Positions 35,234-37,566 of a DNA stretch of 43,728 bases are shown here, in pieces. The notes beneath the pieces were generated by a model that saw only the letters and a list, made by a program, of their open reading frames with translations, ran no database searches and was not told where the DNA came from. The translations under genes and the position numbers were made by a program. This stretch comes from a virus: IMG/VR virus record IMGVR_UViG_3300045125_000024, positions 1 through 43,728 of that record; one strand, 5' to 3'. Within the stretch, counting starts at the first letter, position 1. The number at the start of each line of letters is the position of its first letter.

Positions 35234-35371
35234 ATGCCTTACGACTGCGACCCACGCGAGCAGCAAGCCCGCCAAGACGAGCTGGACCGCCGCTACGAAG
35301 AAGATGGCCGGCACAACCCCGAACACCCGATGCACGCGCTTTACACCGGCCTGATGGAGGCTGCAGAGTGA
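35234..35371 (+). CDS. Small charged protein upstream of dCTP deaminase
   Basis: This intact 45-residue protein starts MPYDCDPREQQARQDELDRR and ends MHALYTGLMEAAE. It is strongly charged and helical. Its TGA overlaps the GTG start of the deaminase (GTGA), so the two are probably coupled. No family recognised. Confidence 0.58.
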   Translation: MPYDCDPREQQARQDELDRRYEEDGRHNPEHPMHALYTGLMEAAE

Positions 35372-35883
35372 CGATCCTATGCGACTGGCAGATCCAGAAT
35401 GCTGCCCATGATGGCTTGGTTGTGCCGTTCAACCCCGACCAGCTGAACCCCGCCAGCTATGACGTGCTGCTCGGTGGGATGCTGCTGATCGAGTCCGCCG
35501 AGGGGCCTGAGCTGGTGCCGTATCCGCTGCAGGATCACACCGAAGCTGAGCCGTACCTGTTGCGGCCGGGGCAGTTTGTGCTGGCGCAGACGGTAGAGAC
35601 GTTCAACCTGCCGGATACGATCGCGGCGCAGTTCATGCTGAAGTCCAGCAGGGCAAGGAGTGGCCTCGAACACCTGATGGCCGGATACTGCGATCCAGGC
35701 TGGCATGGGTCTGTACTCACGCTGGAGCTTCACAACAGCCGCCAGCTGCACCCAGTGCCGCTGTGGCCTGGAATGCGGATCGGGCAGATGGTGTTCCACC
35801 GGATGGAGGAACGACCGCTCAAAAGTTACCGTCTGACGGGTCGGTATAACGGCGATCAGGTTGTAACTGCGAGCCGAGGTTAG
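35368..35883 (+). CDS. dcd: dCTP deaminase
   Basis: This intact 171-residue enzyme starts at GTG 35368 (TILCDWQIQNAAHDGLVV). It deaminates dCTP to dUTP, feeding thymidylate synthesis. Family marks are NPASYDVLLGG, FVLAQTVETFNLPDTIAAQF, LKSSRARSGLEH (the S-x3-R substrate motif) and GYCDPGWHGSVLTLELHN, where the E of LTLE is the expected catalytic base. It is the last gene of the rightward arm and overlaps the end of the leftward arm by 65 bases. No thymidylate synthase was found beside it. Confidence 0.86.
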   Translation: MTILCDWQIQNAAHDGLVVPFNPDQLNPASYDVLLGGMLLIESAEGPELVPYPLQDHTEAEPYLLRPGQFVLAQTVETFNLPDTIAAQFMLKSSRARSGLEHLMAGYCDPGWHGSVLTLELHNSRQLHPVPLWPGMRIGQMVFHRMEERPLKSYRLTGRYNGDQVVTASRG

Positions 35884-36052
35884 CGGCGGCTTCATTGATC
35901 GCCCAGCGTACCTTAATGCGCTCTTGGTAGTAGAGCGTATTCAACAGCACCGCCGCCTTCAGGAGACCTTCGTAGTCGCCACGGCGGTGCATTTCATGTA
36001 GCCAACGATGATGCTGCTCATGTGATAGGCGTTGCTCGATCGTTGGTTCCAT
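35819..36052 (-). CDS. Small helical protein, last gene of the leftward arm
   Basis: This intact 77-residue protein starts MEPTIEQRLSHEQHHRWLHE at 36052. It continues MHRRGDYEGLLKAAVLLNTL and has WAINEAAANLGSQL. The start lies three bases after the endolysin stop. Small proteins with MEPT-EQRL-HEQH occur at this site in cyanophages. Function unknown. Its 3' end overlaps the deaminase gene tail-to-tail. Confidence 0.65.
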   Translation of the reverse strand: MEPTIEQRLSHEQHHRWLHEMHRRGDYEGLLKAAVLLNTLYYQERIKVRWAINEAAANLGSQLQPDRRYTDPSDGNF

Positions 36053-36054
36053 GG

Positions 36055-36965
36055 CTAGTAATCCCAACGGACACGTGGCCGACCTGGCCTGATGCCAAGG
36101 TGCACAAAGCCCTTTGATGCGCCATAGCCTACCGAATACGGCCAGTTGGCATCACACCAGTCTTGAACCTTGTGCACATCAACGCCGTCAATGTAGAAGT
36201 CAACAGCGCCGGTGTCTTTGGTGTCGTACAGGTGCTCCGACTGGCTGGCGCCACCAACGCTGCGGTTGATCTCCGGTGGCCTGTAGCCGCTGGTGATGAT
36301 GATCGGCTTGCCGCCGAAGTGCACGCGGCAGCGTTCAAGGAATGCCGCCAGCTCTGCTGCGGTATCGAGCTGATGGGGGTAACGAAACCGCCGTTCCTCT
36401 TGCCCTAGCGCGAACTCTCCCAGCGTGATGTGAGGCGTCAACCGCGCAGAGAAGCTACTGGTGGGCGTCAGCTTGGCGGGTTGTTGCTGCACTTCGGGCA
36501 GGCCGATCCCCTGAAGCCATAGGCGCCCTTCCGCCTCACGGCGGCGCTTGAGGCCAGCTTCTACGGGTGTTCCGGGGTTGCAGTAAAGCAGCAGCGCATC
36601 AGGCACCTTCGACCAGTCCTTTCGGCAAGGCGCCGGGTGATGGTCTCAAAGCCATTGAAGCCGTAGAAGTTGCTGCCGAGATTGAAGGCAAATGAGATCA
36701 GCGCACAACGCTGCTGATCCTTCATCGCAGACCAGAACGGGATGATGCCGTTCAGCTTGCCGGCGATGTGATCAACTTCAAGGCGAAGCAGGGTATCAGC
36801 TTCGACAACAGTGATCTTGTCGTACTGCTGCACCTCGCGGCCATCGGGGTAGCGCGTGGCGCCGTAGCCGATGGTCCACGGTGCAGCGCCGCTGAGTGGA
36901 TCGGGGTAAGCGATCAATGCGCAACCCTCGAACGCACGGATCAGCTTGAGTGCAGCGCTGAGCAT
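36055..36965 (-). CDS. Two-domain endolysin: GH24 lysozyme plus M15 peptidase
   Basis: This lysis enzyme of about 303 residues starts MLSAALKLIRAFEGCALIAY. The N-terminal GH24 lysozyme has the E-D-T triad in RAFEG, YPDP and WTIGYG, and the fold motif CALISFAFNLGSNFYGF. After a shift near 36605 come CNPGTPVEAGLKRRREAEGR and a linker rich in Gln and Pro. The C-terminal M15 domain has SGYRPPEINRSVGG, SEHLYDTKDTGAVDFYIDG and FVHLGIRPG, giving the H, D, H zinc ligands. It would cut both sugar and peptide bonds of the host wall. An upstream in-frame start at 37007 is possible. Confidence 0.85.
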
Positions 36966-37155
36966 CGAATTGCTTGCCGGCGGTACTCCAAGTGGCGAAC
37001 CACTCACGATCGCGGCGCATGGCCAGCGGGATAGCCGTTGGCTTTGATGTCAGCCTCCAGTTCAGCTGGGATGGCTGCCCGTTGGTGCGGTAGATCGCGC
37101 CAGTAGCGGAACAGTTGCTCCAGGGTGATGGGTGCTGTGTTGCTGCTGGTCACGG
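36966..37155 (-). CDS. Small lysis-region protein
   Basis: This protein of about 60 residues starts at GTG 37155 (TSSNTAPITLEQLFRYWRDL). It reads PHQRAAIPAELEADIKANGY and after a shift near 37025 AMRRDREWFATWSTAGKQ. The ITLEQLFR-x-RxLPHQ ... AMRRDREWFxTWSQAGK pattern is frequent beside lysozyme genes in cyanophages. Function unknown. It overlaps the upstream holin-like gene. Confidence 0.6.
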
Positions 37156-37385
37156 CTGCGGAAGGCATCGCGGATTTCGGTCCAGATCAATGGCGACAGG
37201 GTGGCGGCAACAACGGCGACGATGATGACCTGCGCCATACGTTGCTCCAGGCGGCCAACACGTTCGCCAAGGCTGCTTCGCTCAGTCTTATCGGCAGTAG
37301 CGGCATCAAGAAGCAGCTTCAGCTGCCCCTCGATGGTGCCGATGGCACGGAGGATTTCGCCGTGCGTTGGTTCGCCGTTTGCCAT
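37149..37385 (-). CDS. Holin-like membrane protein
   Basis: This protein of about 79 residues starts MANGEPTHGEILRAIGTIEG. It has a coiled-coil-like part RSSLGERVGRLEQRMAQ and one membrane helix VIIVAVVAATLSPLIW, then a charged tail EIRDAFRS. A short protein with a helix and charged ends, directly upstream of the endolysin, is the best holin candidate. The frame stays open past the next gene's GTG, so the stop is uncertain. Confidence 0.58.
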
Positions 37386-37389
37386 CACG

Positions 37390-37541
37390 TCAGCGCTTGG
37401 TGGAAGCAGCGCCGCGCATAATGCCAAGGATCAGTTGCACCCAGCCATTGGCCTTCACCCCAGGCAACAGGCTGAGTATCTCGGAGCCTGCCAGCAAAGC
37501 GGCGAGGACGTTGGCGACCGTCTCAGGCGTGACGTGCGACA
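37390..37541 (-). CDS. Small hydrophobic lysis-region protein
   Basis: This intact 50-residue protein starts MSHVTPETVANVLAALLAGS and has ILSLLPGVKANGWVQLILGI. It is helical and hydrophobic with a basic end. Similar short proteins lie next to holin genes in other cyanophages. It could be a second holin or an antiholin. Two bases separate its stop from nothing but the next start (37385). Confidence 0.58.
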
Positions 37542-37566
37542 TGGCGTTGCAGATGTTGCATTCAGC

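Follow-up and report, generated by a model that had tools for sequence, protein, structure and literature searches.

The window analyzed here is a virus record from IMG/VR of 43,728 bases, on the minus strand of which two overlapping ORFs carry two different domains expected of enzymes that degrade the bacterial wall. The locus raises the question of whether these ORFs are the pieces of a single endolysin gene interrupted in the deposited sequence or two separate enzymes, and whether both halves would cut the wall.

Organization of the Locus

The ORF at 36055–36606 (GTG start) matched Peptidase_M15_3 with 72.3 bits against a cut-off of 23.2, and the ORF at 36561–37007, also starting with GTG, matched Phage_lysozyme with 58.7 bits against a cut-off of 22.3. 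The two ORFs overlap by 46 bases in differing frames. The nearest relative found, locus L001, showed 89% DNA identity to the window over 2,239 columns, and its protein was 97% identical to the M15-side ORF across its 183 residues. Alignment to the DNA of L001 revealed that one base is missing in the window between 36621 and 36622, separating both enzyme domains. When aligned with the proteins of relatives, the M15 frame tracks them below 36621 and the GH24 frame does so above. Two more frame changes, near 36961 and 37031, are extra bases relative to L001 and lie inside and beside an N-terminal module, which is split over two window frames (37144–37031 and 37026–36964). As judged from these alignments, three shifts, not one, stand between the window and a single open endolysin gene (Table 1).

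The initial annotation had joined the two domains by correcting a single shift near 36605. The shift between the domains was recovered 16 bases away, at 36621/36622, and it does look like a sequence error, many window genes being shifted, but three corrections are needed instead of one. The gene limits of 36055–36965 had to be revised: the end at 36965 was dropped because the relatives continue into the N-terminal module, and the gene runs to ∼37144–37168 with this module included.

Table 1. Features of the endolysin locus and of the small ORFs upstream of it in the window.
Feature	Position	Strand	Basis
Whole gene of the probable endolysin, with three frame changes	36055..37168	-	ORFs; alignment with the proteins of L001, S-CBS3 gp23 and S-LBS1 A30
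Endolysin start	ATG at 37168 or later codon near 37144	-	ORFs, protein alignment
N-terminal module, ∼55 residues, no Pfam name	36964..37144	-	Alignment with relatives
GH24 domain (T4-type lysozyme, muramidase) as far as the missing base, Glu/Asp/Thr triad	36622..36959	-	PF00959, E 9.4e-16; triad columns of relatives
Site of the missing base between the enzyme domains	36621..36622	-	Gap relative to L001, frame change
Last part of the GH24 fold plus linker, read in the M15 frame	36454..36621	-	Alignment to the L001, S-CBS3 and S-LBS1 proteins
M15_3 domain (predicted zinc peptidase), including stop codon; retains His/Asp/His ligands and the SGYR Arg, lacks an acid beside the third ligand	36055..36453	-	PF08291, E 4.3e-20
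50-residue ORF, one hydrophobic segment, upstream of the endolysin	37390..37542	-	Matched 19 times in other loci; hydropathy peaks at 1.75
121-residue ORF, one hydrophobic segment	37062..37427	-	Matched 12 times in other loci; hydropathy peaks at 2.08

Fusion of GH24 and M15_3 in Relatives

Two scans of viral contigs yielded 139 loci, some of which share contigs; the second scan retained the best 80 of at least 594 relatives, so that the sample is biased toward close relatives. At 58 of the 59 loci of the first scan, three of which are truncated by a contig end, the frame is open for 332–382 codons upward from M15. The remaining locus (L058) is open for 221 codons and contains no glycosidase. 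A GH24 domain lies in the M15 frame at 54 of the 59 loci, and four others (L054–L057) carry a glucosaminidase instead. Pfam analysis of the 105 loci in alignment A3 (E ≤ 0.001 for M15_3) detected M15_3 in all 105, Phage_lysozyme in 94 and Glucosaminidase in four; among the other seven, six are without a glycosidase and one (L115) contains a part that appears GH19-like by eye. A home-made GH24 profile, for which 19 of the tested rows had served as training rows, matched 128 of the 139 loci, corresponding to 98 of 105 distinct sequences. At none of the 139 loci from the two scans was the gene divided in two, and a GH24 domain was absent in any frame from the records of the six loci with M15 only. 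These comparisons support the assignment of GH24 and M15_3 to one gene. The GH24 triad and the M15 zinc ligands had been proposed to fall in one gene, and this is upheld by both domains scoring above their Pfam cut-offs and sharing one frame in the relatives. Likewise, a real stop that would yield two separate enzymes, named in the initial annotation as the finding that would overturn it, has no counterpart at these 139 loci.

When one genome per species was scanned, 12 loci were obtained, five of which span both domains. The whole cyanophage-type fusion was present in contigs labelled Hyphomonadaceae (by alignment only) and Verrucomicrobia, which are possibly misplaced phage contigs. A GH24 and M15_3 fusion was also present in contigs labelled Lachnospiraceae and Clostridia, the latter by alignment only. 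Among cyanobacteria, a frame of 553 codons in Leptothoe kymatousa (L068, 3365–5023) places a jacalin-like lectin domain in front of GH24 and M15_3 and, like the phage family, is without the usual M15 acid. A 1003-codon frame of Microcystis (L071, 1445–4453) ends with a part that is GH19-like by eye, followed by M15_3 with an ordinary His-x-Asp.

Origin of the Frame Changes

To place the frame changes of the endolysin in context, annotated proteins of three isolated cyanophages, with a length of ∼100 residues or more, were compared with the window. Frame changes were observed in 13 of 26 matched phage proteins, with 21 changes in total or 1.08 per kb, which is a lower bound as some short pieces were dropped. 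Counted by distinct place, 12 of 23 matched window places carry them, including places in terminase, portal and head genes. When each of the three isolate genomes was compared with the proteins of the other two phages, 0, 1 and 0 changes were detected among 28, 25 and 12 matches, respectively, a rate of 0–0.04 per kb. In the endolysin, one change was detected with the S-CBS3 query and all three with the S-LBS1 query. Since half of the matched proteins are shifted and 54 of the 59 first-scan relatives are fused in one open frame, the breaks in the endolysin are most likely sequence errors. A noisy assembly would most likely account for the frame changes of the window, which decay of the endolysin alone would not. 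The entire window (1–43728) is rich in small indels, and findings of split or joined frames elsewhere in it call for the same caution.

Two other explanations leave the break as a property of the virus itself. The gene could have decayed or been split into two separately made enzymes, as the window taken literally, with its two GTG-started ORFs, would suggest. This is very improbable: no relative is split, the loci outside the 128 with GH24 in the M15 frame have another glycosidase or none, and the DNA similarity to L001 is unbroken on both flanks of the missing base. Moreover, changes similar to those in the endolysin, extending to terminase, portal and head genes, would hardly be tolerable for a working virus. 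Alternatively, programmed ribosomal frameshifting could join the halves, and the overlap of the two frames would offer room for it. The join is, however, encoded in one frame in all 54 first-scan loci with GH24, and the window gene is shifted at two more points upstream. Nor did any of the loci compared show this shift at a slippery site that is conserved. Programmed frameshifting is thereby left with hardly any probability at all. Both true decay and frameshifting were set aside in view of the open frames in relatives and the frame changes throughout the window; a single gene read through a noisy sequence is the interpretation retained below.

GH24 Domain

The Phage_lysozyme match rose from 58.7 bits for the window piece to 76.9 bits for L001. 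Among the 105 rows, 94 of which contain the domain, the first column of the catalytic triad holds Glu in 94 rows, the second Asp in 60 or Cys in 35, and the third Thr in 94. Cys is able to replace Asp in the GH24 triad, and the triad is present in the alignment columns. The whole-chain model (pTM 0.49, with a weak N-terminal part) was used solely for matching GH24, the best PDB rows being 9kbq and 6et6. Receptor chains in the same PDB list, some of which are presumably fusions with T4 lysozyme, were ignored.

M15 Domain and Its Active Site

In the numbering of L001, all 105 rows retain His304, Asp315 and Arg288 (of the motif SGYR). His348 is kept in each of the 104 complete rows, the remaining row being truncated by a contig end. 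In the M15_3 family, His304, Asp315 and His348 are taken to be the zinc ligands and the Arg of SGYR to be functional. The model of the L001 domain (pLDDT 94.8) superimposed on the zinc DD-peptidase 1lbu with Z 14.4 and rmsd 2.7 over 124 aligned residues, showing the M15 fold. 1lbu was also the only PDB chain that the M15 profile detected with E ≤ 0.1 (its E-value being 5.1e-8); it is alike in fold with ∼21% identity, the window family having four more residues between the first two ligands. Hedgehog proteins, with Z ∼7 to the M15 model, were taken to share the fold.

The surroundings of the third ligand deviate from this picture. All 104 rows have x-Gly after it, and His-x-Asp, which 24 of the 31 resolved M15_3 proteins of cyanobacteria contain, occurs in none of the 104 relatives. 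For this comparison, 32 M15_3 places among 60 listed were used from cyanobacteria, the phylum of Leptothoe, and 31 of them were resolved. Six of the 31 have an acid upstream only, and the one without any is the Leptothoe fusion of GH24 and M15. In alignment A2, the five further M15_3 rows that fall outside the clade all have His-x-Asp, and 1lbu is taken to have an acid three residues before the third ligand. Within positions −7 to +2 of the third ligand, Asp or Glu was present in two of 104 relatives as against 30 of 31 cyanobacterial proteins, although this span was picked after viewing the sequences and chance alone will often place an acid among ten residues. The contrast relied on is that of His-x-Asp alone, as the span is post hoc and the rows are non-independent. 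The acidic residue beside the third ligand by which an active M15 peptidase would be recognized was hence not found in this family. Other acids are retained, namely, the invariant Glu of SEH and of GEFAL and, in 96 of 104 rows, the Asp of a C-terminal RWDY.

It could therefore be asked whether the M15 half merely holds zinc and binds the wall, leaving the glycosidase alone to cut. The missing His-x-Asp in particular would fit such a role, as would the want of any acid at −7 to +2 in 102 of the 104 relatives and the exchangeability of the glycosidase that accompanies M15. On the other hand, His, Asp, His and the Arg of SGYR are retained in every complete row, and of the contrasts only that of His-x-Asp is strong. 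In addition, six loci, which encode four distinct proteins, have M15 as their sole enzyme domain, behind a short N-terminal part as judged by eye. In these six possibly incomplete records, three of 30.6–51 kb and three of 4–12 kb, Phage_lysozyme, Glucosaminidase, SLT and Amidase_2, the four families searched, were each found in none of the six. An active M15 is favored by these records without another of the four lysis domains, and a domain that only binds the wall is rather improbable. The M15 half of the window gene is an M15_3 homologue for which peptidase activity is predicted as likely.

N-Terminal Module and Exchange of Partners

The N-terminal module was found in seven phage records representing four phages, all of them cyanophages, and, with the version of cyanophage KBS-S-2A as query, in nine viral loci, one of which is incomplete. 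It is followed by GH24 and M15 in the type of the window gene (L001, S-CBS3 and S-LBS1) and by glucosaminidase and M15 in L054–L057; in the M15-only loci a module-like part (by eye) precedes M15 with no glycosidase. Glucosaminidase and a C39-like peptidase follow it in S-CBS1 gp24 according to Pfam and in L193, L194 and L196 by eye. A GH19-like domain follows it in KBS-S-2A gp8, based on PDB matches, and in L191, L192 and L195 by eye, and GH24 alone does so in L197 (by eye). For KBS-S-2A gp8 the GH19 label was assigned because a class IV chitinase and a glycoside hydrolase are among its PDB matches; no Pfam match was obtained for this protein at E ≤ 0.01. M15 in turn is joined to the GH19-like middle part in L115 (by eye). 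Partners are thus exchanged: the module or M15 stands together with GH24, with glucosaminidase, with a GH19-like domain, with a C39 peptidase or without any of these, and one glycosidase with one peptidase per chain is a frequent combination but no strict rule.

A broader reading, which is doubtful though possible, is that freshwater and estuarine cyanophages share one lysis cassette in which a fixed docking module is kept and the glycosidase (GH24 with Asp or Cys, glucosaminidase or GH19-like) and the peptidase (M15 or C39) are swapped independently, mostly one with one, and in which the catalytic acid of M15 is relocated in a non-standard active site. Candidates for the relocated acid would be the Glu of SEH, the Glu of GEFAL and the Asp of RWDY.

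Relation to Known Endolysins

Proteins of this type have been deposited for isolated Synechococcus phages. S-CBS3 gp23 (YP_004421745.1, 359 aa) has the same domain order and 71.6% identity over the whole M15-side ORF and, unlike the window gene, an open frame. It is annotated as endolysin (RefSeq) or lysozyme (GenBank), with the second domain unnamed in the entries compared. S-LBS1 A30 (ATS93202.1, 368 aa), with an intact N-terminal module, GH24 and M15_3, showed 56.2% identity over residues 18–183 of the M15-side ORF and is named a lysozyme in the description of that phage (PMC6157547). The PHROG 28234, "endolysin," covers residues 5–362 of the 362 of L001, which stood in for the window gene, with E 3.3e-155. 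S-CBS1 gp24 (L078, 2489–3607; E 1e-3) and KBS-S-2A gp8 (E 2e-5) share the N-terminal module but differ in what follows, the former having glucosaminidase and a C39-like cysteine peptidase and the latter one GH19-like domain with no peptidase seen. The NCBIfam identities BgtA (65.8 of 315 bits) and MepK (29.5 of 185) were rejected as partial matches below cut-off.

Section 3.6 of the PhaLP paper (PMC8310338) counts 40 cyanophage endolysins with two enzyme domains (EAD-EAD) and gives a thicker peptidoglycan and, for Synechococcus, more cross-linking as the reason for two domains. The window gene is similarly a probable cyanophage endolysin with two enzyme domains, the domain pairs of the PhaLP set being unspecified in that section. 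Both the fusion and the proposed reason in the wall are hence already on record. The present analysis makes two modest additions, namely, that partners are exchanged on a common module and that the active site of M15 is unusual; a description of either was not found in a limited look at the literature.

Proposed Function

The window gene is quite probably an endolysin related to those of Synechococcus siphoviruses, in which the N-terminal module, a GH24 muramidase and an M15_3 peptidase form one chain of ∼360 residues that would cut the wall in both directions. At the end of infection, the endolysin would reach the periplasm via a putative holin. The muramidase would then cut the glycan chains and the M15 domain the stem peptides or cross-links, so that both directions of the wall would fail and the cross-linked wall be dismantled; the N-terminal module may serve in targeting or wall binding. 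Double cutting is thus a prediction, and one that includes an M15 active site which appears unusual.

The initial annotation had suggested that such an enzyme suits the thick, strongly linked wall of cyanobacteria. This is plausible, and has been proposed for two-domain cyanophage endolysins in the section cited above (PMC8310338), but it is weakened on two counts: fusions of GH24 and M15_3 also occur in the Lachnospiraceae- and Clostridia-labelled contigs, and some relatives have just one of the two enzymes. The main value of the analysis lies in a correction, as the locus is a deposited type of endolysin viewed through noisy sequence. Studies of enzymes for opening the walls of cyanobacteria could draw on the exchange of partners on one module and on the M15 domain lacking the usual acid.

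Neighboring Genes

Beside the endolysin lie two small ORFs with one hydrophobic segment each and without a holin family name in Pfam or PHROG. The 50-residue ORF, with a weak match to a PHROG of unknown function (E 0.093), might at a guess be the holin. The 121-residue ORF, which overlaps the endolysin start in another frame and obtained no Pfam, PHROG or NCBIfam name, is by a similar guess a candidate lysis accessory. At the end of the endolysin, a small minus-strand ORF (35819–36067) without a Pfam or PHROG name has 99% identity in L001 and matches in eight loci. Past this end, a dCTP deaminase-like gene (35368–35883; Pfam DCD, E 8e-31) lies on the plus strand. Also on the plus strand, 32120–32842 matches sigma factor genes of S-CBS3, S-LBS1 and KBS-S-2A, which in those phages are located within ∼1.5 kb of the endolysins.
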